From Sorghum bicolor (lineage: Eukaryota; Streptophyta; Magnoliopsida; Poales; Poaceae): a DNA stretch of 64,000 nt. The DNA lies in assembly GCF_000003195.3 (NCBI RefSeq), contig NC_012878.2, positions 21,466,771 to 21,530,770 of the forward strand, read 5' to 3'. Positions 1,176 through 60,359 of the stretch are shown piece after piece. Position numbers and translations under genes: made by a program. A model generated the notes under the pieces. The model saw only the letters and a list, made by a program, of their open reading frames with translations, ran no database searches and was not told the DNA's origin. Position 1 is the stretch's first letter; every line of letters begins with the position of its first letter.

Positions 1176-4079
1176 ATGGTCACGATCCCAGCTTCCGCGA
1201 CCGTGCCCGAAGGCCTCACGTTCACCGTCGGCCAGATCACGTGGACGACGTGCAGCGGCGGTTTCGCGACCACGGTTCCGAAAGAGATCCAGATCCAATC
1301 TGAGATCACGCCGTCTCCGACCACACGCATGACGGCACCAAGCTCCCGACCACCGTTCCCGCTCTACAAGGGAAAGGAGATCGACTGCTCGGACCTCCTC
1401 CAAGCGCTCGATCGCGCTGACTCCAAGCTACTCGAAGTCTCCCAACTAATAGATGGAGTTCTACGCCGGCCCGACCAAGCTGCTCGAGCGGATTTTTCGA
1501 AATTCCGCCGGCCAACTCGTGTCGCCACACACGAACGGCTGGGAACGTCCCTGACGATAACCTCAACCCCCTCAGGACGATCCGTCGAGCTCAAAAAGGA
1601 AGACTATCCTTGCGGCCTGAACAACTCGGCCTCTGTTTACTCACAGCATGTCCAATCCGTTTTCAGCAAAGCGGGCTGGTCGCCGACAAGGAACAATCGT
1701 CACCATGTCAACATGGTGACCATCCGAGAGCTACGGGACGGCCAGGTTTCCAGCACCAACTCAAGCACCGGCTCCGTCCCCACCGAGGTTGTGAACACCG
1801 AAGACGAGGACTACGACCTGGATTTTCCTCCACACCCTCCGGGTTTCGACCGATTCCCGATATTCCCCCCCCGGCGAGGGGATATTGTATTCAATGTCAG
1901 CGCCGACGAACCGGCTGTTGACGGAGAAACAGACGACCAGAGGCAACTCCGCGAACAGCGTAACGCCGATCGCGCCCGACGGCGTGCGGACGAGCAACAA
2001 CAGACGCCACCAGGTAACCTCAACGATGCCTTTGACATGGTCGGGGACCAGCCGGTCTACAAAACGCCAAGCGCCAACGTGGCTGTCGCCATGGCCAACC
2101 TGGATCGGCTTCCTGACACCCCCGAATGCCAGGGAGTCCGGACCAGTATCCGAGCACACCTGATCGCCGCGATGGGACAGACAGCCACTCTGCTCAAGAG
2201 AGTCCAGGACGTCTCTTATACGGAAGCCGCCTCCGACCAAACTCATCGTAGCCGGGCCTCACCCAGCAGGCGTCGCCGCAGCCGCTCTCCCGACAACCGT
2301 CGAGGGGACTCACGGCGCGACGATGGTGGTCGGGACGCCGATGGCCGCCGCCAGCAGAACCGTGTACGCGGCCAAGAAGAAGAAGATCAACACAGGGATC
2401 TCCGCCACAACATCCCTCCCAAAGATGCCCGGGACAGCATCAACAGGCGCGCCGCAGAGAGAGCAGTCCACGAAAACCTGCGCCGCATCGAGTACGATGC
2501 GACCCATGGTCCTCCGGGCCTAAGGCAGTTCTCCTCACACCTCCGCCAGGTCGTGTGGCCCCGCAATTTCAAGCTCGAAAAACTTAAAAAATACGACGGC
2601 AAGGAAAATCCAGAGAACTGGATCACCCTCTACGAAATCGCCGTCCGATCAGCGGCAGGAGATGAGCACGTCATGGCTAACTACTTCCCCGTAGTCCTCG
2701 ACCAGGCTGGTCATCAGTGGCTTCTCGGCTTGCCCGAGGACTCCTTCGACTCTTGGGAAGAGCTACGACAGGCTTTCATCGACAACTTCATCGCCACATG
2801 CGAGCAGCCCGGAAACAAGTATGACCTTGAAAGGATAAGAGACAGGAAGAATGAACCTCTGCGCGATTACATCCGACGATTCTCGGATATGCGCCTCAAA
2901 ATCCCGAAGATTTCTCATGACGAGGCCATATCAGCCTTTATCAAGGGCTTGCGTTTCCATGAAGCGCTGAGGAACAAGCTGTTGCGTAAGCGCCCATCAA
3001 CGGTAGCAGAGCTCCTAGCCACGGCTAAAAATTATGCCGATGCTGATGACGCAGAAAAACTAATCCGAGACGATGCGAGAGGCACCGACCAGCCCTCCCG
3101 GCGAGATGACGGTCGTGGTCGCTACGACAACAGAAATCACCGCCGCTCCGACAACCGCGATCACCGAGAGGGTTGGGATCGGCGGCGCGACAGCCGCGAC
3201 GACTTCAGAGGAAAGCGCCCTCGCGAATACGACCACGAAGTAAACACGGTCAAACGTCCCAATGGACGACGGGACTACCAAGACGACTACAACAAAACGT
3301 TGAAGGGACCGTGCCAGCTACACCCAAAGTCTAACCATACCATGGAAGAGTGCCGCGTCCTCAAAAGTATCTATACACGGCGGGCCGCCCAAGAAGACAC
3401 CGCCAAGAAAAGTAACAAACGCGACGGGCACGACCACGAAGATGAGGATGAGGACCAAGACAGGGACCCCCGACACCAATACGTCAGCCCCACCGACGTG
3501 GTCCACTCCATTTTCGGGGGCAAGGTCTCCACTGAGTCCAAGCGAGAAAGAAAGCTGTTAAAGAGAGCCTGCCTCAACATAGACAGCACGGACGGGCTGA
3601 TCGCAGATCCGAAATTTCCCGCCTGGTCCCACAGGGAGATCGCGTTCAGCAGGAAGGACCAGTGGGCCGCTATCCCAGAGCCGGGTCGTTTCCCACTAAT
3701 TCTTGATCCCTGCATCAATAGCATTAGATTCGAGCGCGTGCTCGTGGACGGGGGAAGCTCCATCGACATCCTCTTCCGCAACAGCCTGCCCGCCCTCAAG
3801 ATATCACCGGCGCAACTAAAACCTTACGACGCCCAATTCTGGGGGGTTTTGCCGGGTCAAAGTTCGGTGCCCCTCGGACAGATAACATTGCCTGTCCAAT
3901 TCGGCACACCCGATCACTTCCGGACGGAGTTCATCAACTTCGTAGTCGCGGACTTCGACGGGACCTACCACGCCATACTGGGCCGCCCATCGCTGACAAA
4001 GTTCATCGACAAGGCATATAACGATCAAGCAAGACAAGGCAAAAGAATGCGCAGCAGTACAAAAAGCCGCTTACCTTGA
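1176..4079 (+). CDS. gag-pro: Gag-protease polyprotein of element F (Tat lineage)
   Basis: A 967-residue open frame. The ATG at 1176 is chosen as the first in-frame methionine after the primer site. It encodes the capsid polyprotein fused to an aspartic protease. Residues about 280-440 are Arg/Asp-rich and low complexity. The retrotransposon gag (capsid) domain lies around residues 470-630, with the motif YDGKENPENWITLY near its start. A CxxH...HxxxxC zinc-knuckle-like motif begins at residue 713. The retropepsin motif DGGSSID starts at residue 858 and its partner ILGRPS lies near residue 935. The frame ends shortly after the protease in about 25 residues that do not look like the family, where a deletion removed the polymerase genes. 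No internal stop is seen, so gag may still be functional. Lineage is inferred from motif style and the antisense neighbour. Confidence 0.88.
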   Translation: MVTIPASATVPEGLTFTVGQITWTTCSGGFATTVPKEIQIQSEITPSPTTRMTAPSSRPPFPLYKGKEIDCSDLLQALDRADSKLLEVSQLIDGVLRRPDQAARADFSKFRRPTRVATHERLGTSLTITSTPSGRSVELKKEDYPCGLNNSASVYSQHVQSVFSKAGWSPTRNNRHHVNMVTIRELRDGQVSSTNSSTGSVPTEVVNTEDEDYDLDFPPHPPGFDRFPIFPPRRGDIVFNVSADEPAVDGETDDQRQLREQRNADRARRRADEQQQTPPGNLNDAFDMVGDQPVYKTPSANVAVAMANLDRLPDTPECQGVRTSIRAHLIAAMGQTATLLKRVQDVSYTEAASDQTHRSRASPSRRRRSRSPDNRRGDSRRDDGGRDADGRRQQNRVRGQEEEDQHRDLRHNIPPKDARDSINRRAAERAVHENLRRIEYDATHGPPGLRQFSSHLRQVVWPRNFKLEKLKKYDGKENPENWITLYEIAVRSAAGDEHVMANYFPVVLDQAGHQWLLGLPEDSFDSWEELRQAFIDNFIATCEQPGNKYDLERIRDRKNEPLRDYIRRFSDMRLKIPKISHDEAISAFIKGLRFHEALRNKLLRKRPSTVAELLATAKNYADADDAEKLIRDDARGTDQPSRRDDGRGRYDNRNHRRSDNRDHREGWDRRRDSRDDFRGKRPREYDHEVNTVKRPNGRRDYQDDYNKTLKGPCQLHPKSNHTMEECRVLKSIYTRRAAQEDTAKKSNKRDGHDHEDEDEDQDRDPRHQYVSPTDVVHSIFGGKVSTESKRERKLLKRACLNIDSTDGLIADPKFPAWSHREIAFSRKDQWAAIPEPGRFPLILDPCINSIRFERVLVDGGSSIDILFRNSLPALKISPAQLKPYDAQFWGVLPGQSSVPLGQITLPVQFGTPDHFRTEFINFVVADFDGTYHAILGRPSLTKFIDKAYNDQARQGKRMRSSTKSRLP

Positions 4080-42893: not shown

Positions 42894-43878
42894 CTAACTC
42901 TCCATGGCAAGGTAAAAATGGACTACGTCTATTTCTTCTAATACTTTATTGGGCTCTAAAAATAATTTAAGACGTTGACCATTTACCTTGAATAACGTAC
43001 CTTTGTCATTTTGAAGTGTGATAGCTCCGTGGGATGATGAATTGATCACCTTGAATGGTCCTTCCCATTTGCTCCAGAGTCTTCCATACCCGAAAATCTT
43101 CACCCTGGAATTAAAAAGTAATACCTTATCTCCGGGTGCGAACTCCTTCTTCTTGATTCTCTTGTCATGCCACCTTTTGACTCTTTCTTTGTAGATCTTC
43201 GAATTGTGATATGTTTTCTCTCGCCATTCTTCCAATTCTGATAGTTGCATTCTTCTATGATCTCCAGCAACATCTAGGTCCATATTCCATCTCCTTATGG
43301 CCCAGTGTGCTTTGAACTCTAGTTCAACAGGTAGGTGGCAAGTCTTCCCGTACACCAATTGGTATGGGGACATTCCAATTGGGGTCTTGTATGCTGTCCG
43401 GTATGCCCAGAGTGCATCGGGTAACTTGTCTTTCCATGCCGTTCCCATTTCATTCACTGTCTTCTGAAGAATATTCTTGATTTGCTTGTTGGAAGTCTCT
43501 GCTTGGTCACTTGTGTGAGGATGATAGGGGGTAGCGACGTTGTGACGGATTCCATGTTTTGATAGATATTGCTTGAAGCGTTTGTCGACGAAGTGTGCTC
43601 CTCCATCACTTATCACTACTCTGGGGACTCCAAATCTTGGAAATATAATTTCTTCAAACATCCTCTTTGAACTGATGTTGTCGGCATGTTTGTAAGGTAG
43701 TGCCTCTACCCACTTGGAGACGTAGTCAACTGCCACCAAGATGTAGTCACACTTCTTTGATTGGGGAAATGGACCCATATAGTCTATTCCCCAAACATCA
43801 AAGAGCTCAATATGAAGGTTGTTGGTGAGTGGCATGGCATCCGTTGTGTTTATGTTTCCGTGCCTTTGACATGGTCCA
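42894..43878 (-). pseudogene. int: Integrase of element C, 3' part
   Basis: Continuation of the pol frame from 58029 after removal of insertion K. It begins in the CxxC of the zinc-binding domain and contains the catalytic core: WGIDYMGPF (first Asp, about 43775-43790), VISDGGAHF (second Asp, about 43595-43620) and QAETSNKQI (Glu, about 43485-43510), so D-D-E are present. The C-terminal GPF-type motif WEGPFKVIN follows near 43050 and the frame ends LAMES at 42894. There is no chromodomain, as usual for Athila-like integrases. This segment has no internal stop. Loss of function comes from K and from damage upstream. Confidence 0.88.
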
Positions 43879-44339
43879 TGTAACACCCTAGGTGTTAAGC
43901 ATGCATTTAGCCCTATCACAACATGCATAAGCATTTTCATCAAGCATAGCATCATGAGCATGTCATTCATCCCAAAACATGATTTTATGTGCTTTATTTC
44001 ATGTGTTTTAATTATGCTAAAATATGATGCTTGCTTCCAAAAATGTGAAATATTCAAACTAGGTTGATTTATGTGTAAGAAGAATTTAGAGTATTTTTGT
44101 GTAATTTTTGGAGCTATGGAATTTGAGAAATGGAATTTATACAAGATTTCCAAATTGAATTTATTTAAAAACCTAGAACTAAGTTTAATTTGTAATTCAA
44201 ATTCTATTTGGAATTTGGTCTTGCTTATGAAAGCAAAGTTGTAGCGTTTTTGTTTTGGAACAACTTTGTTTTTGGGAGCAAGAGGTGAAAATGATTTTAA
44301 ATTGGTCCAAATGAATTTAGAAAGAATTTGGAGAAAAGA

Positions 44340-45200
44340 AATTCAAAAAAAGGAAAGGGGCAGGCGCTGCTGGGCCAACCCCGCTTCCCTTTCGGCCCAG
44401 CGAGCGGCCCGGCCTGCCTCCCCCTTCCCCTCTCTCCCGCGCACGCGGCGCCCGCCTCGCTCCACCCGGCGCCGGCCACGTGGCGGCCGTACGCCGGCGT
44501 TGGACGCGCCGCGGCCGGCCTCCAACCCCCATGGTCGGGACGCCGGCTCGGGCTCCCAGGCCATTTCCTCCGTTCTGTCCCCCGCGCCCTCCTTCTCCTT
44601 CCTCCCTCCGCTCGCACCGCGCAGCAGCAGCTCCTCCGCACGCCATTGCCGGAGAAAGCCCCGCCGCTCGCCGCCGACCGCACCAGAGCCTCAAGCTCAC
44701 CGCCGAGAGCACCAGCGCCTTCGTCATCGTTAGGGTAAGCTTGTGCGCGCGTTCTACCGAGGTGAGAGTCCGTCGAGCGCCGTGAATAGCTCGCCGGGGT
44801 TACCCCGAGCTCGCCGGAGTACTCCGCCACGACGGATCTTGTGTTTCTCTGCCTCTTTTCGCTGGTTCTTGGGTGCGCTAGGTCGGTAGGGTGGTGAGGA
44901 AGCTCGGAGAGGCGTTTGCGCACGCTCTACCGCGCCGGAGCGGCCTGGCCACGGCGAGCAGCGCCGCCGTGCCGCCATGCATGCTCGTCGGAGGTGTTCC
45001 GGTCATCCTCCGGCCAATCCAAGGGTACCGTTGGGTGCGCCTCGCTGCGGGGAGCACGTTGGTGCTTACCCCGTGGCCGGAGACCTCACCGCCGGCGAGA
45101 TCTGCTCGTCGGAGGTGAGCTCCCTCTCGGTCTCGCTGACCGGTGGGGTCGGGGACCCACTGTCAGTCGCAGGGGGACCCCGGTGGGTGTAGATCTGGGT
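44340..45200 (+). promoter_or_regulatory. GC-rich gene-like block in the K LTR
   Basis: A strongly GC-rich, CpG-rich block in an AT-rich LTR, repeated at about 54590-55440. It contains donor-like sites (GTTAG/GGTAAGC near 44733, CCGAG/GTGAGAG near 44760, CGGAG/GTGAGC near 45114) and ends where an intron-like AT-rich stretch starts. It looks like a grass gene 5' region with first exons. Proteins readable in several frames are low complexity and not credible. A role as promoter and spliced leader is inferred. Confidence 0.45.
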
Positions 45201-46145
45201 GTGCGTAGCCTTTTTCGTCGGTTTTGTTGAATAAATGATTTCCAGAAATTGATTCAAAACTTGTAAAATTCATATCTTGAGTTCTACAGCTCCAAATTAG
45301 ATGAAATAAATTTTGGTGTGCTCTATATTTCCAGATCTACATTTTGATGTAATTGCATGTCATGTTTGAGTAACTTTTCTGAATGAATATATTTAATCCA
45401 TCTTTTTGCTAAACTTGGAGAATGCATAGTAAATAAAATATGGTTCAGAAAAATGTGAAACTTGATTTGTTGGCTCTGCATGTATGTTTACTCACTGGAA
45501 AAATATTGCTACATATTATTTGGTGTATAGATGAATTTAAGGTAATTTAAATGCTTGCATGGCAGTGATTTATGATTTTTGATAATTAATTGGATCATGC
45601 AATAAATCTGGAAAATTTTGTGGCTGTTTCTTATGATATTAGACAAATTGTAAAAATATGAAATCTGTTGTTTGACACTTATATCAGAGTAGAGTGATTA
45701 TACTTACCCTATGAATTAATCTTGTGATTTTTGTGGCTCAAAATAAGTATCCAAAAATTATGAAAAATTTACAGTAGACTTTATGCGTAGCTGGTAGTCT
45801 CCTGTAATTTTTGTGGAATTTATTGATGAACAGAATTGCATGTGATTTTTAATGGGCCTAGAAATGAATAAAGAAAATTTTGAATTGTTGTGTATATAGG
45901 TTGAATAGAATAGGTTGGGTTTGGTGTATCTTTGAAGCATCAAGTGGGTTGCTGGTTGCATTTGAAAAATAATTGTAGAAGAGAATGCAATAGATGTTTG
46001 ATTCAATTGTTTGTTCTTGGATGATGTTGACTACCTTGTAATGAGCATGACCGAGTACATTACATATGCATCATGTCATGACTCCTTTGGTACTTTCTCA
46101 TACAAGCATCCACTCGGGCATCTCGCACTCCACTCATAAGCACCC

Positions 46146-46346
46146 ATGCATCATACAGGCTCGCAGGAGAACGAAGTGGGACCCGAGGAACCCGAGGAGA
46201 TTCAGGAGCAGGAACCTCCGGAAGCACAGGAACCCGGAGAGGAGCTGCAGGAGTGTCCGGATCACCGACCCAGCACGTTTGACAAAGGCAAGCCCCGGAG
46301 CATTCTAAGTCTCCCTATTCTCGCTAACTTATATGATGCGCTATAA
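46146..46346 (+). other. Acidic exon-like ORF in the 5' LTR of K
   Basis: A 66-codon ORF starting at ATG 46146 directly before a splice-acceptor-like CATCATACAG/G. It is Glu/Pro-rich and ends with the block KGKPRSILSLPILANLYDAL. The same ORF is in the 3' LTR (56383-56583) and a diverged one in G (21024-21245), where KGKPWSILSLPL is kept. It may be an exon of an LTR transcript. Function unknown. Confidence 0.5.
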
Positions 46347-47793
46347 TTGTTCTACTATATTGCATCTAAGTGATAGGATTTGATTGATGCCGTTGATGCA
46401 TATGTACTCCTTGTTATCCCTACTCGTTCACCTACCTTGTCCTATGTAGATAGGCACGGAGTCTATGCTTAGCTTGCTTAGTCCGGTAGAAGTCGGGTGA
46501 TTTCCTATCACCTGCGAGAAATAGGTGGATACCTGCTTGATTAAGCATTGGTTGCTTGGGGAAAAGAATAACCAAGTATGGAATGTAACTGGAGACCGGG
46601 CAGGGTCTTATGGTGGGTTGACCATAGTGCCCCTGCCTGCGTCGATTAAGGACCGATCGTTGACGGTCCTCTTGTCGTGTTGAACGCATGCCCCACACTT
46701 AGCTGGAAGGATAAGTCGTTCCGACCGCGAAGCCTGAACACTATCCGGGCCGGGCATCGAGCCGCCATGCGCTGTATTGGTGATGGTTGAGGAGAACGAC
46801 GAGGGCGCGGCGCGCAACCTTGGTATACCTTGGATACCTCGGTCGCCGGAACGGTCCTCGGGTACTGGCGGTGCATGCCGAACCCGCGAATTGGTCCTGG
46901 ATAGTGTAATACGGTGATCTGTAGCTCACTTGATCAGTGAGTATGTTTTGTGTGGGGAATACCTCGCCAGCTGGTTAGAAATCGATTCGAATCACCATCG
47001 CTCCTGGATAGTGAGCACTTGACATGAGCTTCGTCCTCGTAGTAAGGACTATGGAACACTTGAGTTATGTTGATGAATGGTTTTAAGAAATGCTATGATG
47101 AGGTACTATCATAGCCTTATACTCGCTTGTAATAGTGCCGGTGCAAACCTAGATGATAGGTAATGATACTTTCAACTTGAGCAAATTAAAAGAAGAAAGA
47201 CTTATGTAGGTTATGATAGTAAAATCCTACGGCTTTGCAAAATGGTTGTCAGCTACCCCACTATATAGCCTTCATGATCCTTGATGAGTCTTTATTTTAA
47301 GTTTATGACGGGTAAGTCTAGCTGTGTACCTTCTCATACTCAGGGTTCTACTCCCATGTTGTTTTGCAGATGGTCAAATGTACTATGGTTATTGCATCCT
47401 CTGTCTATACCCAGCCATGGGTGATGACTAGACCAAGGGCGATGGTCACTCCGTCTTCTCTTTTGCTTTTGTGGGAATGACCGAACTATGGCACTATATC
47501 AGACTAAGCGTGTGTGTTGTATTTTTGAACTACGAAGCTTCCGCTACTTGAAGAACTTGGTTTGTAATAACTTTAAAAACTCCGATGTATTTTATGAATG
47601 TTGAAATCTGGATGTATTGTGAATGGCGACCGCTAAACTTATTACGATCTTGGCTGTTGTGCGATATGTGGTTTGAAATCCTTCGAGATTTCACGGACTA
47701 CCGGGATTATATGGGCTTAAGCGTGATGGTTTGACTATGCAAATGGTCACTGTTAGGCTTAATCTCTTATAATTTGGTCGGTTCTATTACAGC

Positions 47794-47808
47794 TGGCATC
47801 GGAGCAAG
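47794..47808 (+). other. Primer binding site of element K
   Basis: TGGCATCGGAGCAAG, two mismatches in the first twelve bases from the tRNA-iMet site TGGTATCAGAGC, two bases after the LTR end. Confidence 0.75.
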
Positions 47809-48611
47809 GTTTAGCGAGTTACTGTTCATAAGTACGTTCTAAACAAAATCTAAACCGGTCTAATAAAGGATTTTATTAATTAATAGTGATCAAGGTGTTA
47901 AACTAAGTTTTGGAAAACTATCTAGTGTGCCATGGTCATATCCTTTATGCCCAGTCAAGGACTCTAAGGTGGCTAGTTAAGTATTGACTTGGGGGTTAAT
48001 GCATCATATTTTTATTTCGTCGCTCATACGGCGTGCAATAGTATGAGTACCATTCATTTGAGTGGTAATGTATGGATCTATTTTTCCTCTACGTCATGGT
48101 AAGTGGGAGCTGTGAGAGCATGATCGGATACACCGCCGGTCTAGGGGAGTGTTGTTAGGTACTGTGTCATGCACACATGTTTTGGTGTGTCTTGGAAACA
48201 GTACCGCATGTTGGGAATTCCGTCCTGAGAGGCGATGCCGTCATTAGGGCGATGATATGGGTAGCAACACATCACATGCATGGACGGGTGTCAGTGTATG
48301 TGAAGTGCATAGTTTTAAATTTTGTTTTGCATTAGCATACTGTGGGTGGGCTGAAATGAGTTTTCTGCAGGTACCCTAACCACGTTCTCGCTTAGAACGC
48401 TAGTTACGTTATGAGAGAACGTTGTGTGCCACCGCATATACCGCTTAGTGTTAACCTTTGTTTCTAAGTTTGTGAGATCGTAAGTTCGTGCATGCATCAT
48501 GTTCATGTCATATCATTGCTTACTTTCCCTCTTAATTTAATCTGTCCCAATTCTAAATAAAATAATTAAAAGTAATCCTCGCTCTTACCCACGGTATTCC
48601 ATTTGCAGCAG
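47809..48611 (+). other. Leader of element K between primer site and ORF1
   Basis: About 800 bp without a credible gene. It ends in TTCCATTTGCAG/CAG immediately before the ORF1 ATG, a good splice acceptor, so ORF1 may be made from a spliced mRNA. Confidence 0.5.
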
Positions 48612-49655
48612 ATGGCACGCACTAGGCTCACCGCTCGTAAGTCCACTGGTGGGCGGGCCCCTCGCCATCCGTTGGTAGCTAGGAGCTCGCGACATAAGAG
48701 CAAGTTCTTGGAGGAGTTTGGGATGCCCACTTTGCTTTGGAGGGTACTCAGTTCGATGGGGTATCCCGAAGGAAGGGAGCCTCGCTACTATTGGGATAAG
48801 GAGCCGCTTGGTGACGAGACCCTGGTGGGGATCGAGGCAATTGTCCCTACTAGTGGAGGAGACCCTGCTTGGGGTGGCTGGGTGTACGAGTCCCGAGGTG
48901 TCACGCCTTTCCACGGTGCCAGCATGGCAGCTTTCGCAGTTCTAAGGGACCTCATGGAGAGGTTTCCACAGGAGCTGGCCCATGCCTTCGCTGGGGTGTT
49001 TCCCCGGGGTGACCCCTACACTTCGGTGTGGGATCAGTCCGAGGTGAGCGCTCTAGAAAGGAGTGCAGCTGAGGACCAGCACAGTGACAGCGCAGCTATG
49101 AGTGCCATGTACGCCTTGATGAAGACCTATGGAGGCCTGGAGCGTTGTTTGGGTCGCTTGTCCGGGTCTCTTCTCACCGTCCAGGATGAGAAGCGTCAGT
49201 TGCAGCGTGAGTTCAACTCTGAGTTTGAGAGGCTGCAGGCAGAGTTGGCCCGTGTGACCAGAGAGAGAGACCAGGCAGTCCAGAAGAACAGCGAGCTGAG
49301 TCAGGACCTGCTTGCAGTGCGAGAGCAGAGGGACAGGGTGACTACTGCTCACAGGAACTGCGAGCGCATGCTAGTCCATGTTCTTGGACAGAGGAATGAA
49401 GCCTGGCACGAGGAGGACACTTTGAGGGCCCGACAGCTAGAGCTAGAGCAGCAGCTAGCTAATGCTGAGGAGTACAATGAGAACTTGCATGAGGAGATCC
49501 ACCAGCTGCATAACCAGCTCCACCCTCACCACCTGCCTAGAGCAGCTGAGCTAGACTCTGAGGATGAGATGGACGCGGATCCCGAGATAGGAGAAGCTGC
49601 TAGTGGAGATGAGGATGAGGATGGCTCCGGCATGGACAGTGACCATAGCGAGTAG
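48612..49655 (+). CDS. ORF1 of element K: histone H3 tail-like N-terminus, coiled coil and acidic tail
   Basis: An intact 347-residue ORF placed before gag. The ATG at 48612 is chosen because it follows a splice-acceptor-like TTGCAG/CAG and gives the H3-like start. Residues 2-21 match 15 of the first 20 residues of mature histone H3, including an uninterrupted TARKSTGG (H3 positions 6-13); H3 K4 and K14 are Arg here, Q5 is Leu, K18 is His and Q19 is Pro, while R2, R8, K9, S10 and R17 are kept. Residues 30-145 look globular (WGGWVYESRGVTPFHGAS near 88-105). Residues about 185-303 form a long heptad-rich coiled coil. Residues 313-347 are very acidic, like histone-chaperone tails. The H3 globular fold is absent. 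No known family is recognised. A role in chromatin mimicry is inference. The frame is intact although gag-pol has four stops. Confidence 0.8.
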   Translation: MARTRLTARKSTGGRAPRHPLVARSSRHKSKFLEEFGMPTLLWRVLSSMGYPEGREPRYYWDKEPLGDETLVGIEAIVPTSGGDPAWGGWVYESRGVTPFHGASMAAFAVLRDLMERFPQELAHAFAGVFPRGDPYTSVWDQSEVSALERSAAEDQHSDSAAMSAMYALMKTYGGLERCLGRLSGSLLTVQDEKRQLQREFNSEFERLQAELARVTRERDQAVQKNSELSQDLLAVREQRDRVTTAHRNCERMLVHVLGQRNEAWHEEDTLRARQLELEQQLANAEEYNENLHEEIHQLHNQLHPHHLPRAAELDSEDEMDADPEIGEAASGDEDEDGSGMDSDHSE

Positions 49656-49977
49656 ATACTAGGGCTCTAGAGCTAGTCCTTCTTCTTGTGTTGTTGTATG
49701 TTGCATGGCATGTCGTGTACTTTTGGATCTGGGCTATGTAAGACTTATAAGTTAATGCTAAAAGTCCAGTATATGTATGCTGGCAAGTTGGATGTACGCG
49801 AACCTTGTTGCGTAAATTTTAAGTAATCTGTTAGTGATGTTGTGCATAGATGATGAATTGTTGTGCCTCTGTTTATTGTGCGAATTTATTCCCTCAGTAA
49901 ATTCAGTACGGCATGATTCTACACATTTCTACCGTTGATAACAACTCCTAACAAATGCTTATCATTGACGTATGCAG
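49656..49977 (+). other. Spacer between ORF1 and gag of K
   Basis: AT-rich, no gene. It ends ACGTATGCAG directly before the gag ATG, another acceptor-like sequence. Confidence 0.5.
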
Positions 49978-52900
49978 ATGGTGCAAACACGTGGCGGGGG
50001 TAACAGCAATCCGGGCCTTGGAGCAGGTACATCCGGAGGTGGGGCTCAACGGAATGAGGACAGAGCACCAACACCGCCACCACCACCGCCTCCTCCGTAC
50101 ACTGCGGACGTGTTTTTCGCGCAGTTTCTGGGGAGTCAACGCAACATGGAACAGATGCAGCGCAACATGGAAGAGGCTCTGCGCAACATCGCTGACAACA
50201 CCCGTCGTGGGGATAATCAGGGTGGCCGAGAGGTCAACCAGTACAGTTTGTTCAAGGACTTCATGGATACCAAGCCACCAATCTTCAAAGAGGCTTTGGA
50301 ACCGCTTGAGGCAGATGAGTGGATCAACACCATGGAGCAGAAGTTTCGTCTTCTCCGAATGACAGAAGAACTTAAGGCTGAGTATGCGGCACATCAGTTG
50401 CAAGGACCCGCTGGGATTTGGTGGTCCCATCAGCGTACAACCTACCCAGAGGGAACCCCAATTACCTAGAACCGTTTCACCACAGCTTTCCGAGGAAATT
50501 ACATTCCTCCGGGTGTGGTTGAAATGACAGTTGGGGAGTTCATGAGGCTGTCCCAGGGGACGAAATCGGTGAAGGAGTATCTACATGCTTTCAATAATCT
50601 CGCTCGCTATGCCCCTGAGTTTGTAAACATGGAGGCTAAGAAGATTGCTAGTTTCCAGAGGGGCTTGAATCCAAAGATGCTGAAGACCATGGGTACATGG
50701 GCCAGGGCTACCTTCAATGCTTACATCAGTGACTGTCTCACCCAGGAGAACAACAACAACAACTACAGTGCATCCAAGTCACGTAAGAGGGCTTTTGAAG
50801 CCGGATCATCTCAGTCCAGGGCACCAGTGGCAGGGCGACAGCAGTATCGTGCTCCTGCCCCAGGTGCTAGGTTCCGACCATCGCAGAGAAGGAACACCGG
50901 GCATCCAACACAGCAGAAGCCGTACAAGGTGGCGATAGCCCCTGCCAAGCCAAAGGCAGTTCAAGCTGCAGCACCTGCCGTCAACAATGCGCCCAAGGGT
51001 CCGTGCTATAACTGCCACAAGATGGGGCACTTTGCTAAGGAATGTCCCTACCCCAAGAGGCAGCAGCCAACCTATCTAGCTCGTGTGCACCATACCTCGA
51101 TCGAGGAGATCCCGGAAGGAGAACCGGTAACAGCTGGTATGTTTCCTGTCAACCAACATCTTGCAGTTGTTTTGTTTAATTCTGGATCATCGCATTCATT
51201 CATGAGCCAAGCATTTGCACAAAAGCATAGTCAACCAGTTACAGATCTGGGTTATGGCTACCGCATCAGCTCAGCAGGGGCAGATGTGTTGACCAATAGA
51301 GTGGTCCGAGGGGCAACCCTGGATATAAGTGGCCGAGTTTTTCGGGTAAATCTAGTGGTCATGCCTGGGTTAGTTTTGGATGTTATCATGGGCATGAACT
51401 GGATGAGAGAATGGGGTGCTGTCATAGATACTGGGAAGAGAATGTTATCCCTCAGAGAACCGCAGAGCAATCGCTCTTTTCAAGTACCTCTGCCCCGTCG
51501 TCTTGACTTTGCTAGCATCTCTTGTGCTACGCACGTGGTTCCATTACCACAGATCCCAGTAGTTTGTGAGTTCCCTGATGTTTTCCCTGAGGAATTACCA
51601 GGACTTCCCCCAGATAGGGAAGTAGAGTTTGCAATTGAGTTGATCCCAGGTACAGCACCAATATCTAGAAGGCCGTACCGGATGCCACCAAACGAACTTG
51701 CTGAGTTGAAGAATCAACTAAAAGAGCTACTGGATAAAGGGTTCATCCGGCCAAGCTCGTCAGAGTGGGGTTGTCCAGCGTTGTTTGTGAAGAAGAAGGA
51801 TCAATCGTTGCGCATGTGTGTGGACTATCGTCCACTCAATGCAGTGACAATCAAGAATAAGTATCCCTTGCCAAGGATCGATATCCTGTTTGATCAGTTG
51901 TCCAAGGCAAAAGTGTTTTCCAAGATAGATTTGAGGTCTGGGTATCATCAAATCAAGATTCATCCGCAGGATATCCCGAAGACTGCTTTTTCCACCAGAT
52001 ATGGGTTGTATGAGTACCTTGTCATGTCCTTTGGGTTGACAAATGCTCCTGCATACTTTATGTATCTGATGAATTCAGTCTTTATGCCAGAATTGGATAA
52101 GTTTGTTGTGGTGTTTATCGATGATATTCTGGTTTATTCCAAAAATGAGCAAGATCACGCCGAACATCTGAGAATCGTGCTGACACGATTACGAGAGCAT
52201 CAGTTATATGCCAAGTTCAGCAAGTGTGAGTTCTAGTTGAAGAAAGTTCCTTTCCTAGGGCACATTCTGTCGGAAGAAGGGATTGCTGTGGATCCGTCAA
52301 AAGTGCAGGAAGTCATGGACTGGAAGGCACCAACTTCTGTCTCGGAAGTTAGAAGTTTTCTTGGTCTGGCCGGGTATTATCGCCGATTCATACCTGACTT
52401 CTCCAAGATTGCTAAGCCAATGACAAGTTTGCTGCAAAAGGATCATAAGTTTGTCTGGACGGAAGGGTGTGAGTTAGCCTTCCGCACCTTGCGAAAGTTG
52501 CTAACCACTGCTCCCGCTCTGACACAACCTAATATCGAAAAGCCTTTTGATGTGTTTTGCGACGCATCGAAGAGTGGCTTGGGGTGTGTGTTGATTCAAG
52601 ATGGCAGGGTGATAGCTTATGCTTCCCGACAGTTGAGAAAGCACGAAGTCAACTACCCAACTCACGACCTCGAGTTAGCAGCAGTGGTACACGCTTTGAA
52701 GATTCGGAGACATTATCTGCTGGGAAATAAGTGTCACATTTATACCGATCATAAGAGTTTGAAGTACATCTTCACTCAGTCCGAGCTAAATATGAGGCAA
52801 CGATGGTGGTTAGAGCTAATCAAGGACTATGATCTGGAATTTCACTATCATCCGAGCAAGGCTAATGTAGTAGCAGATGCGTTGAGTCGTAAACCGCACT

Positions 52901-54114
52901 ATCAAGTGGTTCAACCGTTGTTTGAAGATGGGTTCAATCTCATGCATCCTGAGGTCTTATGTCACATACAACTCAGTTGTTCACTCGAGAGTCAAGTCAT
53001 TGAAGGACAGAAAACAGCCAAGGGTATTTTCCACATCAAGGAGAAGATCAAAGATGACCCAAAAACTCAATTTCGCGTTGATGAGAAAGGGGTATTGTGG
53101 TTTCAACATCGGTTAGTAGTCCCGAAGGATCGAGAATTGAAGAATCGCATCATGGATGAAGCCCATCTCTCTAAGCTTTCTATTCATCCTGGCAGTAGCA
53201 AAATGTATCAAGATCTAAGACGCCACTTTTGGTGGACCAAGATGAAGAAGGAAATAGCCGCATATGTAGCCCGTTGCGACACGTGTTGCAGAGTTAAGGC
53301 CATCCATATGAAATCTGCAGGTCTGTTGCAACCGTTATCAGTTCTAGAGTGGAAATGGGAAGAGGTCAGTATGGACTTTATCACAGGATTACCGACCACG
53401 AGGAAGGGGAATGACTCGATTTGGGTGATCATAGATCGATTAACCAAGTCGGCTCATTTCATTCCAGTCAAGAACACATACAGACCTCCCGAGTATGCCG
53501 ATATATATATGGCTGAGATTGTTAAGTTGCATGGTATTCCCAAAACCATCATATCAGATAGAGGACCACAGTTCACCACTCACTTCTGGGAGTGAATGCA
53601 TAAGAATTTGGGAACCAGTCTGATAAGAAGCACGACGTACCATCCCCAGACTTCAGGACAAACGGAGAGGCTAAACCAAGTATTGGAAGATATGCTGAGG
53701 GCCTGTGTGCTATCATCCAAGGGATCATGGGAGTCATGGTTACCTCTGGCTGAATTCTCCTACAATAACAGTTATCAAGAGAGCATCAAGATGGCCCCGT
53801 TCGAAGCTTTGTATGGTCGGAGATGTAGAACTCCGTTGAACTGGGTTGAACTTGGTGAGAGAAGATACTATGGTATCGACTTCGTGAATGAGGCAGAGAA
53901 GAAGGTACAAATCATACAGCAGCATATGCGCGCAGCGCAATCCCGACAAAAGAGTTATGCTGATAAGAGAAGAAGGCCACTTGAATTCAAAGTAGGTGAC
54001 TATGTGTACCTCAAGGTTACGCCAATGAAGAAGGTTCAGCGTTTCTGAGTTCGAAGCAAGCTTGCACCCAGATATGTGGGACCGTATCAAATACTAGAGG
54101 GGGGAGGGCTGTAA
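49978..54114 (+). pseudogene. gag-pol: Gag-pol of element K with four stop codons, dead protease and no chromodomain
   Basis: One frame encodes gag, protease, RT, RNase H and integrase. In-frame stops lie at 50467 (TAG), 52234 (TAG), 53593 (TGA) and 54046 (TGA); I see no frameshift. Gag has a Pro run and a CCHC knuckle [14 protein letters not shown] (51004-51045). The protease motif reads FNSGSS, with Asn (codon 51178-51180) where the catalytic Asp belongs. RT has the FIDD box (52114-52125). RNase H shows FCDAS and TDHKSLKY. Integrase has the HHCC finger, DFITG (53374), SDRGPQF (53557) and Glu of QTERLNQ (about 53664). After the GPY-type motif APRYVGPYQ the frame runs straight into the purine tract, so the chromodomain expected for this branch is deleted. 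An alternative ATG lies at 49972. Confidence 0.92.
54096..54108 (+). other. Polypurine tract of element K
   Basis: AGAGGGGGGAGGG, one base before the LTR start at 54110, fused to the truncated integrase end. Confidence 0.85.
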
Positions 54115-57100
54115 CACCCTAGGTGTTAAGCATGCATTTAGCCCTATCACAACATGCATAAGCATTTTCATCAAGCATAGCATCATGAGCATGTCATTCA
54201 TCCGAAAACAAGATTTTATGTGCTTTATTTCATGTGTTTTAATTATGCTAAAATATGATGCTTGCTTCCAAAAATGTGAAATATTCAAACTAGGTTGATT
54301 TATGTGTAAGAAGAATTTAGAGTATTTTTGTGTAATTTTTGGAGCTATGGAATTTGAGAAATGGAATTTATACAAGATTTCCAAATTGAATTTATTTAAA
54401 AACCTAGAACTAAGTTTTAATTTGTAATTCAAATTCTATTTGGAATTTGGTATTGTATATTAAAGCAAAGTTGTAGAGTTTTTGTTTTGGAACAACTTTG
54501 GTTTTGGGAGCAAGAGGTGAAAATGATTTTAAATTGGTCCAAATGAATTTAGAAAGAATTTAGAGAAAAGAAATTCAAAAAAAAGGAAAGGGGCAGGCGC
54601 TGCTGGGCCAACCCCGCTTCTCTTTCGGCCCAGCGAGCGGCCCGGCCTGCCTCCCCCTTCCCCTCTCTCCCGCGTGCGCGGCGCCCGCCTCGCTCCACCC
54701 GGCGCCGGCCACGTGGCGGCCGTACGCCGGCGTTGGACGCGCCGCGGCCGGACTCCAACCCCCCCTAGTCGGGACGCCGGCTCGGGCTCCCAGGCCATTT
54801 CCTCCGTTCTGTCCCCCGCGCCCTCCTTCTCCTTCCTCCCTCCGCTCGCACCGCGCAGCAGCAGCAGCTCCTCCGCGCGCCATTGCCGGAGAAAGCCCCG
54901 CCGCTCGCCGCCGACCGCACCAGAGCCTCAAGCTCACCGCCGAGAGCACCAGCGCCTTCGTCATCGTTAGGGTAAGCTTGTGCGCGCGTTCTACCGAGGT
55001 GAGAGTCCGTCGAGTGCCGTGAATAGCTCGCCAGAGTTACCCCGAGCTCGCCGGAGTACTCCGCCGCGACGGATCTTGTGTTGCTCTGTCTCTTTTCGCT
55101 GGTTCTTGGGTGCGCTAGGTTGGTAGGGTGGTGAGGAAGCTCGGAGAGGCGTTTGCGCACGCTCTACCGTGCCGGAGCGGCCTGGCCACGGCGAGCAGCG
55201 CCGCCGTGCCGCCATGCATGCTCGTCGGAGATGTTCCGGACATCCTCCGGCCAATCCAAGGGTACCGTTGGGTGTGCCTCGCTGCGGGGAGCACGTTGGT
55301 GCTTACCCCGTGGCCGGAGACCTCACCGCCGGCGAGATCTGCTCGTCGGAGGTGAGCTCCCTCTCGGTCTCGCTGACCGGTGGGGTCGGGGACCCACTGT
55401 CAGTCGCAGGGGGACCCCGGTGGGTGTAGATCTGGGTGTGCATAGCCTTTTTCGTCGGTTTTCTTGAATAAATGATTTCCAGAAATTGATTCAAAACTTG
55501 TAAAATTAATATCTTGAGTTCTACAGCTCCAAATTGGATGAAATAAATTTTGGTGTGCTCTATATTTCCAGATCTACAGTTTGATGTAATTGCATGTCAT
55601 GTTTGAGTAACTTTTCTGAATGAATATATTTAATCCATGTTTTTGCTAAACTTAGAGAATGCATAGTAAATAAAATATGGTTCAGAAAAATGTGAAACTT
55701 GATTTGTTGGCTCTGCATGTATGTTTACTCACTGGGAAAATATTGCTACATATTATTTGGTGTATAGATGAATTTAAGGTAATTTATATGCTTGCATGGT
55801 AGTGATTTATGATTTTTAATAATTAATTGGATCATGCAATAAATCTGGAAAATTTTGTGGGTGTTTCTTATGATATTAGACAAATTGTAAAAATATGAAA
55901 TCTGTTGTTTGACACTTATATCAGAGTAGAGTGATTATACTTACCCTATGAATTAATCTTGTGATTTTTGTGGCTCAAAATAAGTATCCAAAAATTATGA
56001 AAAATTTACAGTAGACTTTATGCGTAGCTGGTAGTCTCCTGTAATTTTTGTGGAATTTATTGATGAACAGAATTGCATGTGATTTTTAATGGGCCTAGAA
56101 ATGAATAAAGAAAATTTTGAATTGTTGTGTATATAGGTTGAATAGAATAGGTTGGGTTTGGTGTATCTTTGAAGCATCATGTGGGTTGCTGGTTGCATTT
56201 GAAAAATAGTTGTAGAAGAGAATGCAATAGATGTTTGATTCAATTGTTTGTTCTTGGATGATGTTGACTACCTTGTAATGAGCATGACCGAGTACATTAC
56301 ATATGCATCATGTCAAGACTCCTTTGGTACTTTCTCATACAAGCATCCACTCGGGCATCTCGCACTCCACTCATAAGCACCCATGCATCATACAGGCTCG
56401 CAGGAGAACGAAGTGGGACCCGAGGAACCCGAGGAGATTCAGAAGCAGGAACCTCCGGAAGCACAGGAACCCGGAGAGGAGCTGCAGGAGTGTCCGGGTC
56501 ACCGACCCAGCACGTTTGAGAAAGGCAAGCCCCGGAGCATTCTAAGTCTCCCTATTCTCGCTAACTTATATGATGCGCTATAATTGTTCTACTATATTGC
56601 ATCTAAGTGATAGGATTTGATTGATGCCGTTGATGCATATGTACTCCTTGTTATCCCTACTCGTTCACCTACCTTGTCCTATGTAGATAGGCACGAAGTC
56701 TATGCTTAGCTTGCTTAGTCTGGTAGAAGTCGGGTGATTTCCTGTCACCTACGAGAAATAGGTGGATACCTGCTTGATTAAGCATTGGTTGCTTGGGGAA
56801 AAGAATAACCAAGTATGGAATGTAACTGGAGACCGGGCAGGGTCTTATGGTGGGTTGACCATAGTGCCCCTGCCTGCGTCGATTAAGGACCGATCGTTGA
56901 CGGCCCTCTTGTCATGTTGAACGCATGCCCCACACTTAGCTGGAAGGATAAGTCGTTCCGACCGCGAAGCCTGAACACTATCCGGGCCGGGCATCGAGCC
57001 GCCATGCGCTGTATTGGTGATGGTTGAGGAGAACGACGAGGGCGCGGCGCGTAACCTTGGTATACCTTGGATACCTCGGTCGCCGGAATGGTCCTCGGGT

Positions 57101-58028
57101 ACTGGCGGTGCCTGCCGAACCCGCGAATTGGTCCTGGATAGTGTAATACGGTGATCTGTAGCTCACTTGATCAGTGAGTGTGGTTTGTGTGGGGAATACC
57201 TCGCCAGCTGGTTAGAAATCGATTCGAATCACCATCGCTCCTAGATAGTGAGCACTTGACATGAGCTTCGTCCTCGTAGTAAGGACTATGGAACACTTGG
57301 GTTATGTTGATGAATGGTTTTAAGAAATGCTATGATGAGGTACTATGATAGCCTTATACTCGCTTGTAATAGTGCAGGTGCAAACCTAGACGATAGGTAA
57401 TGATACTTTCAACTTGAGCAAATTAAAAGAAGAAAGACTTATGTAGGTTATGATAGTAAAATCCTGCGGTTTTGCAAAATGGTTGTCAGCTACCCCACTA
57501 TATAGCCTTCATGATCCTTGATGAGTCTTTATTTTAAGTTTATGACGGGTAAGTCTAGCTGAGTACCTTCTCGTACTCAGGGTTCTACTCCCATGTTGTT
57601 TTGCAGATGGTCAAATGTACTATGGTTATTGCATCCTCTGTCTGTACCCAGCCATGGGTGATGACTAGACCAAGGGCGATGGTCACTCCGTCTTCTCTTT
57701 TGCTTTTGTGGGAATGACCGAACTATGGCACTGTATCAGACTAAGCGTGTGTGTTGTATTTTCGAACTACGAAGCTTCCGCTACTTGAAGAACTTGGTTT
57801 GTAATAACTTTAAGAACTCCGATGTATTTTATGAATGTTGAAATCTGGATGTATTGTGAATGGCGACCGCTAAACTTATTACGATCTTGGCTGTTGTGCG
57901 ATATGTGGTTTGAAATCCTTCGAGATTTCACGGACTACCGGGATTATATGGGCTTAAGCGTGATGGTTTGACTATGCAAATGGTCACTGTTAGGCTTAAT
58001 CTCTTATAATTTGGTCGGTTCTGTTACA
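54110..58028 (+). repeat. Element K 3' LTR
   Basis: 3919 bp, TGTAACACCC to CTGTTACA, with the same internal layout as the 5' LTR. The GC-rich block lies at about 54590-55440. Confidence 0.92.
56383..56583 (+). other. Acidic exon-like ORF in the 3' LTR of K
   Basis: Copy of 46146-46346 with a few residue changes; frame and final block intact. Confidence 0.5.
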
Positions 58029-60359
58029 GCCCACATCTTCTGATATATTGCTTCGTGTCTTCATACATTGTAGGCCAGTAGAATCCACACTGCCAGATCT
58101 TTGAATGTGTACGGAATGCTCCATAATGACCTCCATATGGTGATGAATGGCATCTATCGATGATCTTCCATCCTTCCTCAGAGATCACACATCTCCTGAG
58201 TAAGCCATCAGAGCATACTCGGAAGAGGTATGGCTCATCCCATATATGTGAACGACTTTCTTGAATAAGCTTCTTCTTGTTTACTCCTGGTGGTACATAC
58301 CCTGAAACCATAAAATTAACAATATCTGCATACCAGGGGTCAGACCTGTTAATCCCGTAGAGCATGTCGTCCCGGAGTGAATCATTGATGGTGGTTTCCT
58401 GTGGACTCTTAAAATACATTCTAGACAAGTGATCAACAACAAAATTTTCTACTCCCTTTTTATCTTTTATTTTTAAGTCAAATTCTTGGAGTAATAAGAT
58501 CCATCTAATTAGGTGAGGTTTAGCATCTTTTTTAGTGAGCAAATATTTTAGTGCAGCATGATCAGTGTAAACAATTATTTTAGCTCCAACTAAATAAGAT
58601 CTAAATTTATCAATGGCAAAGACTACAGCCAGAAGCTCTTTTTCAGTGGTTGCATAATTAAGTTGAGCTCATGTCAAAGTTTTACTGGCATAAGCAATTG
58701 CATGATGTTTCTTATTTTTAGTTTGTCCCAATACTGCCCCCACAGCATAATCACTAGCATCACACATAATTTCCAAAGGCAACGACCAATCAAGGGGTTG
58801 AATGATTGGTGCAGAGATGGCTGCTTTTTTTAATAATTTGAAAGATGTTAGACATGCATCATCAAATTCGAAAGGAGCATCCTTGGCTAGCAAAAGAGTA
58901 AGTGGTCTAGCAATGAATGAAAAATCTTTTATGAATCTACGATAAAACCAGCATGGCCAAGAAAGCTTCGAATTCCTTTTATATTCACAGGTGGAGGTAG
59001 TTGTTCAATTACTTAAATTTTAGCTTTGTCTACCTCAATACCTCTTTCAGACACTAGGTGTCCCAGCACTATTCCTTCCCTAACCATAAAATGATATTTT
59101 TCCCAATTAAGGACTAAGTGCTTTTCTTCACATCTTTGCAAAACCTTGTTTAAGTTTTCAAGACAACTATCAAAAGTTTTTCCATAAACAGAGAAATCAT
59201 CCATGAAAAATTCCATAATCTCTTCAATCATATCAGAAAATATAGACATCATGCATCTTTGAAAAGAAGCTGGTGCATTACATAACCCAAAAGACATTCT
59301 ATGGTAAGCATATGTTCCGTATGGGCATGTAAAAGTGGTTTTTCTTTGATCATCAGGATGGATCGGGATCTGGTGATACCGTGAATATCCATCTAAGAAA
59401 CAAAAGAACGAATGGTTCGCTAATCGCTCTAGCATCTCATCTATGAAAGGTAAAGGAAAATGATCCTTTCTTGTGGCCTTGTTCAGTTTTCTATAGTCTA
59501 TGCACATCCTCCATCCTGTGACGCTGCGTTGCGGAATTAGCTCATTCTTTTCATTCATAATAACAGTCAGGCCTCCCTTTTTAGTCACAACTTGAACTGG
59601 GCTTACCCACTCACTGTGCGGCACATGATATATAATCCCTGCATGCAGCAACTTTATAACTTCCTTTTTAACTACCTCTCTCATCGTGTTGTTAAGTCTA
59701 CGTTGAGGTTCCCGAGAAGGTGAAACAGAAGGATCTGTCGGAACACGATGGGTACAAATCATAGGACTGATTCCTGTAAGATCTTGAAGTGAGTAGCCGA
59801 AAACTGAGTGATGTTTCTCAAGAATGGTCATTAATCGCAGAGTTTGCTCCTGAGTGAGTTTATCACTAATGATTACAGGAAACTCTGGATTATTGTTTAG
59901 GAAAGCATAGATAAGACCAGGTGGTAAAGTTTTAAGCTCTATGGGAGGTCTAGGTGCTTCTGCAAACTCATCTAAGGGTTCAGGTTCAGAAGGTTCAGCT
60001 TCTTCTTCTGTGAAGAAAGGAGTTTCGTCTTCTAAGTCTCGTTCATCTAAAAGCTCTAGAGATGCAGCCTTTACCTCCTCCATAGGATCAGGCAAAAGAT
60101 ATGACTCGGCCTTATTGTTCAAGGAGTGTGAAATTGTTATGGGAAATTTAAAGGTTTTTCCAAAAGAAATGTGTTGCTTTCCAGTATGACCTTCATAAAT
60201 GAGTCTTCTAAAAGGTTGTCCTATCAACAAGTCGAAGTCCCATGTATCAAAGATATAGAAGTTCAAATGAACCATGGAGCCTTCTACCGTAAGAGGTAGG
60301 ACATTAATAATTCCATGACTGGGGACTAATCGTCCCGAAGATTCCTTTATGACTTTCAT
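58029..60359 (-). pseudogene. pol: Protease remnant, RT, RNase H and integrase start of element C
   Basis: The minus-strand frame starts at ATG 60359 in the end of the protease (LLIGQPFRRLIYEG near 60215), so the protease active site and all of gag are absent. RT follows with WRMCIDYRKLNKATRKDHFP near 59490 and the FMDD catalytic box at about 59193-59207, the form usual in Athila-like RT. Damage: TAA at 59013-59015, a one-base deletion near 58940-58948, and TGA at 58669-58671. RNase H ([23 protein letters not shown] near 58570) and the HHCC region of integrase ([20 protein letters not shown] near 58100) follow. K interrupts at 58028, and the integrase continues at 43878. Confidence 0.88.

Follow-up and report, generated by a model that had tools for sequence, protein, structure and literature searches.

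A 64,000-nucleotide stretch of the Sorghum bicolor genome (contig NC_012878.2, positions 21,466,771 to 21,530,770; hereafter, the window) carries a long terminal repeat (LTR) retrotransposon in which an open reading frame (ORF) ahead of gag, known as ORF0, begins with a copy of the N-terminal tail of histone H3. The likeness is real and goes beyond chance. The tail is probably an H3.3-type first coding exon that the element captured, together with its splice acceptor, in ancient times, and the chances are about even that it works as a decoy for the proteins that write or read methylation on lysine 9 of H3 (H3K9). If true, a histone-gene exon has been shuffled into a mobile element and a plant retrotransposon practises histone mimicry; the parasite may have turned to its own use a duplicate of the protein tail on which the plant places its silencing mark. 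Elements of the Tekay/Retrosat2 type are very abundant in grasses, and a captured tail that preserves K9 offers a testable idea, namely that the element addresses its own silencing in the language of the histone code.

ORF0 is open from position 48612 to 49655 of the plus strand (347 amino acids plus a stop codon) and its N-terminus reads MARTRLTARKSTGGRAPRHPLVAR. Among mature residues 1–20, 15 are identical to H3, the changes being K4R, Q5L, K14R, K18H and Q19P, and TARKSTGG is intact; an earlier note on this DNA had described just such a mimic, with the same five substitution sites, and is borne out. Both search methods recover the H3 N-terminal tail: with H3 as a tblastn query against the window, the start of ORF0 was matched at an E value of 1.8e-6 and the next match at 0.84, and a phmmer search of ORF0 against PDB sequences returned H3 as the top entry (best E value, 0.0014). 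The module formed by the Met and residues 1–23 (48612–48683, plus strand) has the size of a host H3.3-type first coding exon; 15–17 of its 23 residues match H3 and, past residue 23, one of the next 12 equals H3 as read by eye. The rest of the protein is not a histone: no histone family matched ORF0 among 20 Pfam families at E values up to 10, and the predicted model comprises a part like a double-stranded RNA-binding domain (dsRBD) and a long helix rather than a histone fold.

The host genome (709,120,108 bases in 846 contigs, the window lying on contig C9) was searched with ORF0 as query (P0001), and 117 matches were scored out of 3807 candidates, which makes this number a lower bound. There are thus at least 117 copies, 95–100% identical, 100 of these 117 being free of stops. 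Polymorphism was compared in the 30 best-scoring copies, including that of the window (25 distinct sequences), and six more copies complete a set of 36; the sampled copies are skewed towards those most similar to the query. None of the 30 has an internal stop, and the ratio of nonsynonymous to synonymous polymorphism (pN/pS) amounts to 0.077 over the whole ORF, with 0.041 in residues 37–122, 0.088 in the helix and 0.059 in the acidic end. For tail residues 1–23 it reaches 0.275, nearly all of it due to an H/R polymorphism at residue 18, and across residues 6–13 (TARKSTGG) pN is 0 and pS 0.103. Invariant in the 36 host copies are A1, R2, T6, A7, R8, K9, S10 and T11, as well as the changes K4R and K23R. 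The tail is constrained in the host, with position 9 fixed, which the earlier note had proposed to check, and the tail, whose absence from homologues had been named there as counter-evidence, is present in every one of the 36 copies examined.

The tail also extends beyond this family. Two protein searches, the second of which found 275 proteins and listed 120, gave a set of 146, query included; the tail is seen in 31 of them, and 16 of 42 database homologues have it visibly. Three families share it: A, that of the host; B, with 29 database proteins in which the tail is joined directly to the helix and the dsRBD-like part is absent; and C, represented by P0012. K9 is kept in 36/36 copies of A, 28/29 proteins of B and in the single C protein, the only loss being an Asn in one B protein. 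H3 lysines 14, 18 and 23, which can be acetylated, are each replaced in all 66 of these sequences, mostly by Arg or His; K4 is Arg in families A and C, and Lys in B. The ARKS context is complete in the 36 host copies, and in the 29 B proteins A7 is found in 29, R8 in 24, K9 in 28 and S10 in 29, P0012 having H at position 8. G13 does not vary among the 29 B proteins or among the 30 A copies compared. When A is compared with C, the tail ties as the best-conserved 21-residue window, with 17 identities, and none of 305 windows exceeds it; the windows that exceed it are 14 of 150 for A against the family B majority line and 6 of 140 for C against B. In 22 of the 29 B members T11 is replaced by Ala, so that the resulting ARKSA resembles the context of H3 K27 as well as that of K9.

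Other searches gave little more. Residues 1–60 alone as a query found three proteins among seven candidates scored, with a visible tail in none; the viral contigs and prokaryote genome contigs searched held no relatives of ORF0; and a search of the host for families B and C yielded, among the 123–150 candidates scored out of 3,100–3,500, family A (51–60% identity to the queries) and one variant. This variant (L067, in the G000:C4:27028525 region) has an in-frame internal gap that leaves little of the dsRBD-like domain and only the second half of the helix, and retains a tail, MARTRLTARKSTGGQAPRHQLAPR, with 18 of 24 H3 letters.

With regard to the origin of the tail, the host H3 genes are informative. 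In four fetched intron-bearing genes (L045–L048), which we take to be of the H3.3 type by the intron criterion, the coding exon appears from the sequence to end after K23 (AAG, then GT) in 4/4; in L047 the 3′ splice site ends exactly at the start codon (tgcag|ATG), and in L048 the stretch examined shows H3 sequence from Q5 onwards. ORF0 shares with this exon the start, the exon-sized end after residue 23 and a CAG before the ATG as in L047, and differs from it in lacking a histone fold, in having K14, K18 and K23 replaced and in being fused to other domains. A CAGCAG resembling a 3′ splice site abuts its ATG in the window (48606–48611, plus strand); TTGCAGCAG precedes the ATG in 32 of the 36 host copies, and the other four have an AG within 6 nt of it. 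In family B, 19 of the 29 records read ...LLQ|M ahead of the tail, which would fit ...CAG|ATG. The match of 15/20 residues, the end at the H3.3 exon boundary and the splice-site-like CAG together favour capture over convergence.

The capture of an H3 5′ exon had been suggested by the earlier note, and the exon boundary and splice-site placement favour it, but the nucleotide comparison cannot separate it from convergence. A convergent mimic with no H3 ancestry would be in keeping with synonymous sites devoid of any signal of such ancestry, and linear mimics are easily evolved by viruses; it is nevertheless very improbable, given that the 15/20 matches lie at the exact start, that the likeness stops at the H3.3 exon boundary behind a CAG and that Q19 or T11 is still H3-like in some relatives. 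The same note had regarded a translation start downstream of the tail as counter-evidence. An in-frame TAG abuts the ORF0 ATG in 2 of 36 copies, so read-in translation from upstream is impossible there; the window copy has its nearest upstream in-frame stop 39 nt away, and 26 of the 42 database homologues come without upstream DNA.

Several observations weigh against the reading of a captured and specially preserved tail. Comparing codons with those of 11 host H3 genes is uninformative, synonymous sites being saturated: ORF0 and L046 share 7–8 of 15–16 codons where 5.5–5.7 are expected, and ORF0 and L037 share 3–4 where 3.3–3.4 are expected. Since codon matches add nothing, a capture event would be old. 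In the 19 family B records mentioned above, another in-frame ATG lies 12 codons further upstream and, if used, would bury the tail. Among the 16 full-length members of that family, tail likeness is 0.846 versus 0.875–0.892 elsewhere; the deficit lies in the Arg columns (0.64, the non-Arg tail columns standing at 0.929 versus 0.888), as expected if many copies decay by C-to-T change. Finally, the idea that the tail is conserved better than the rest of the protein was rejected, since in the 30 host copies, with residue 18 left aside, it is about equally constrained (pN/pS 0.063 versus 0.068).

The sequence ahead of ORF0 bears on how it might be expressed. The leader that separates it from the LTR (47792–48611, plus strand, 820 nt) contains 22 upstream ATGs, so that unspliced RNA would be a poor template for ORF0 translation, and includes a donor-like G|GTAAGT at 48099. 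An apparent acceptor CAG also abuts the gag ATG (49975–49977, plus strand), with CTCCTAAC upstream. From these motifs, we infer alternative splicing either to ORF0 or to gag. A second acceptor-like sequence, TTGTTTTGCAG|ATG, is located within the 5′ LTR (window positions 47357–47372). Separately, three diverged host H3 genes (L050, L051 and L055) have AG before the ATG and depart from H3 after L20, with altered tails such as MARTKCTARKSTGG and MARTKSTARNSTGG.

As to what the tail might do, short H3-like motifs able to engage H3 enzymes or readers occur in influenza NS1 and in G9a, at its automethylation sites. These are internal or C-terminal and span a few residues, whereas the mimic in ORF0 is as long as an exon and forms the actual N-terminus of a protein encoded by a retrotransposon. 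With the Met removed, as is expected ahead of Ala, ORF0 would expose A1-R2-T3...A7-R8-K9-S10 as in H3, amounting to an H3 tail that could not be acetylated at K14, K18 and K23 and that would retain K9, the lysine of the silencing mark. The helical rod, presumed to be dimeric, would present at least two such tails; the long form would add the dsRBD-like domain, and all forms would have the acidic tail. The protein most likely acts in the nucleus as a decoy, either substrate or ligand, of the H3K9 machinery, such as SUVH-type methyltransferases and readers of the ADCP1/AGDP1, CMT3 or SHH1 type, which could weaken or redirect silencing of the element and perhaps also interfere at the level of the Dicer partner. 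According to the available parts of the respective reports on these plant HP1-like readers, AGDP1 contacts A1, R2, K4, A7, R8 and K9me2 of H3, not T3, Q5, T6 or S10 (PMC6208443), and ADCP1 contacts R2, K4 and K9me2, not A7, R8 or S10, its binding being weakened by S10 phosphorylation (PMC6318295). Of these contacts, R2 and K9 are retained in the mimic, joined in the host by A1, A7 and R8; K4 has become Arg in two families and Q5 is lost. This retention of reader-contact residues favours the decoy for H3K9 writers or readers.

Two other roles have to be considered, both unlikely. In one of them the tail, methylated or not, would be a tether, bound by chromatin readers or by the chromodomain of the element's own integrase, and would bring either the protein or the pre-integration complex into heterochromatin. 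Binding to the chromodomain had been proposed in the earlier note, and a chromodomain-like stretch is indeed present in 6/6 fetched sibling 3′ ends; however, the single one scored reaches 21.0 bits against a Pfam cut-off of 25.1, an SH3-like domain in the same sequence passing its own, and the stretch is missing from the window copy. Moreover, Tekay chromodomains are described, in the portions available, as type II, with most cage aromatics absent (PMC11728184, PMC12786077), and those of group II as lacking the aromatic cage residues (PMC12786077). The insertion patterns point in both directions. Rice RIRE3 and RIRE8 occur at higher density in (peri)centromeres and are matched by numerous CENH3 chromatin immunoprecipitation reads, according to the accessible part of that study (PMC4387472), and in sunflower the Tekay groups that have an aORF show another insertion pattern than those that lack one; yet, in the sections available, it is the aORF-bearing group that is inserted in chromosome arms and the others that lie near centromeres, opposite to what simple tethering to heterochromatin would give, and the sunflower aORF has no amino-acid similarity to those of grasses (PMC11728184).

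The other role, to which we give equally low credence, is that the H3-derived tail has been retained only as a basic peptide for nuclear import or nucleic-acid binding, perhaps via H3 importins, in a protein of assembly or RNA packaging. The first 30 residues contain nine Lys or Arg and no acidic residue, the acidic end could contact this basic start, and grass 5′ aORF proteins are predicted to be nuclear in the part of the study available (PMC11728184). Nonetheless, K14, K18 and K23 have been given up in 66/66 sequences, while K9 has never become Arg or His (one Asn among the 66). Such a pattern is hard to fit with charge alone and speaks against a tail that is only basic; A7 and S10, moreover, do not vary across the 36 A copies or the 29 B proteins, like G13 in the sets given above. 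The decoy remains the preferred reading.

Beyond the tail, the earlier note had claimed a rod and an acidic end in place of a histone fold; all of this was found, but a predicted dsRBD-like domain of alpha-beta-beta-beta-alpha fold had been missed (residues 37–122; 48720–48977, plus strand). The rod corresponds to a predicted long helix, presumably a dimeric coiled coil (residues 159–303; 49086–49520, plus strand), with a predicted local distance difference test (pLDDT) score of about 90 or more across residues 181–300, and it is followed by the acidic C-terminal tail (residues 304–347; 49521–49652, plus strand), with 17 Asp or Glu and one Lys or Arg in 44 residues. The nearest structures to the modelled domain are the dsRBDs of plant DRB7.2 and DCL4, with Foldseek E values no better than 0.0051 and 15–18% identity. 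KKxAK at helix alpha2 is the RNA-binding motif of dsRBDs; it is missing from ORF0 and absent in 12/12 segments displayed (a 13th sequence, P0024, was unmatched by the script), so RNA binding is not expected and the domain, as modelled, is probably of the protein-binding kind. Sequence profiles missed it: no dsRBD appears among the 25 Pfam families shown of the 85 matched by 23 ORF0 members. In the available text of a recent study, the aORFs of maize Tekay and sorghum Sb7 weakly resemble a DRBM protein in structure, with TM scores of 0.35–0.37 (PMC11728184). A single protein with a decoy tail whose only consistently retained lysine is K9, a Dicer-partner-like dsRBD and a dimeric rod might jam both the readout of H3K9 methylation and the production of small RNAs; this wider proposal is doubtful.

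Such frames are not new. Usually named ORF0 or 5′ aORF, rather than ORF1 as in the earlier note, they were described in 2012 (PMC3485330) and modelled in 2024 (PMC11728184) in Retrosat2, RIRE3, RIRE8 and Tekay, which are, as far as the accessible text goes, likewise Ty3 chromoviruses with LTRs over 3 kb and an extra ORF for a helix-rich protein between the 5′ LTR and gag. In the part available, the authors of 2012 name hydrolases among the enzymes predicted for ORF0 and were unable to assign it a function (PMC3485330). The word "histone" does not occur in the main texts of these two papers, so the H3 tail is not described there, and neither an exon origin nor splice sites for ORF0 were found in their available text (PMC3485330, PMC11728184); "histone" is likewise absent from the accessible part of PMC7264820, and in that of PMC12786077 it occurs eight times and "mimic" not once. 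No title or abstract start retrieved describes H3-tail mimicry in retrotransposons or in ORF0/aORF, most subscription papers lying outside this search.

The element itself can be followed from end to end. Its 5′ LTR (TGTAACACCC...TTACA, about 3.9 kb, ends read from the sequence) lies at 43879–47791 and the 3′ LTR at 54110–58028, both on the plus strand and 98.06% identical across 3921 columns. A probable 5-bp target-site duplication, GTCCA (43874–43878), is paired with GCCCA at 58029–58033, with one mismatch. Two bases after the 5′ LTR there is a primer-binding-site-like TGGCATCGGAGC (47794–47805, plus strand); it may be compared with TGGTATCAGAGC, which is absent in exact form on the plus strand. 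The gag-pol frame (49978–54109, plus strand) is interrupted by in-frame stops at 50467, 52234, 53593 and 54046, and gag, protease, reverse transcriptase (RT), RNase H and the integrase zinc-binding domain pass the Pfam cut-offs, the integrase core falling below. A polypurine tract, AGAGGGGGGAGGGC (54096–54109, plus strand), is read before the 3′ LTR. The window copy lacks 353 bp that encompass the integrase end and the chromodomain-like stretch, with the break at 54094–54099 and a 6-bp overlap; these 353 bp are present in the six siblings. The earlier note had overlooked both the four stops and this loss.

With LTRs over 3 kb that start as TGT(A/C)ACACCC and with an ORF (48612) before gag (49978), the layout matches that of Tekay/Retrosat2-like chromoviruses, in which ORF0 would be the accessory protein encoded at the 5′ side. 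Retrosat2 begins TGTCACACCC in the available text (PMC3485330), and sorghum Sb7 or SorSat2 may belong to the same family as the window element. Integrase-like and RT/RNase H-like ORFs, recognised by eye, flank it on the minus strand at 42894–44153 and 58024–60359, and the element seems to sit inside another, minus-strand Ty3-type element. In P0043, a Miscanthus floridulus annotation, the C-terminal region of an integrase is fused, as judged by eye, to the C-terminal end of an ORF0.
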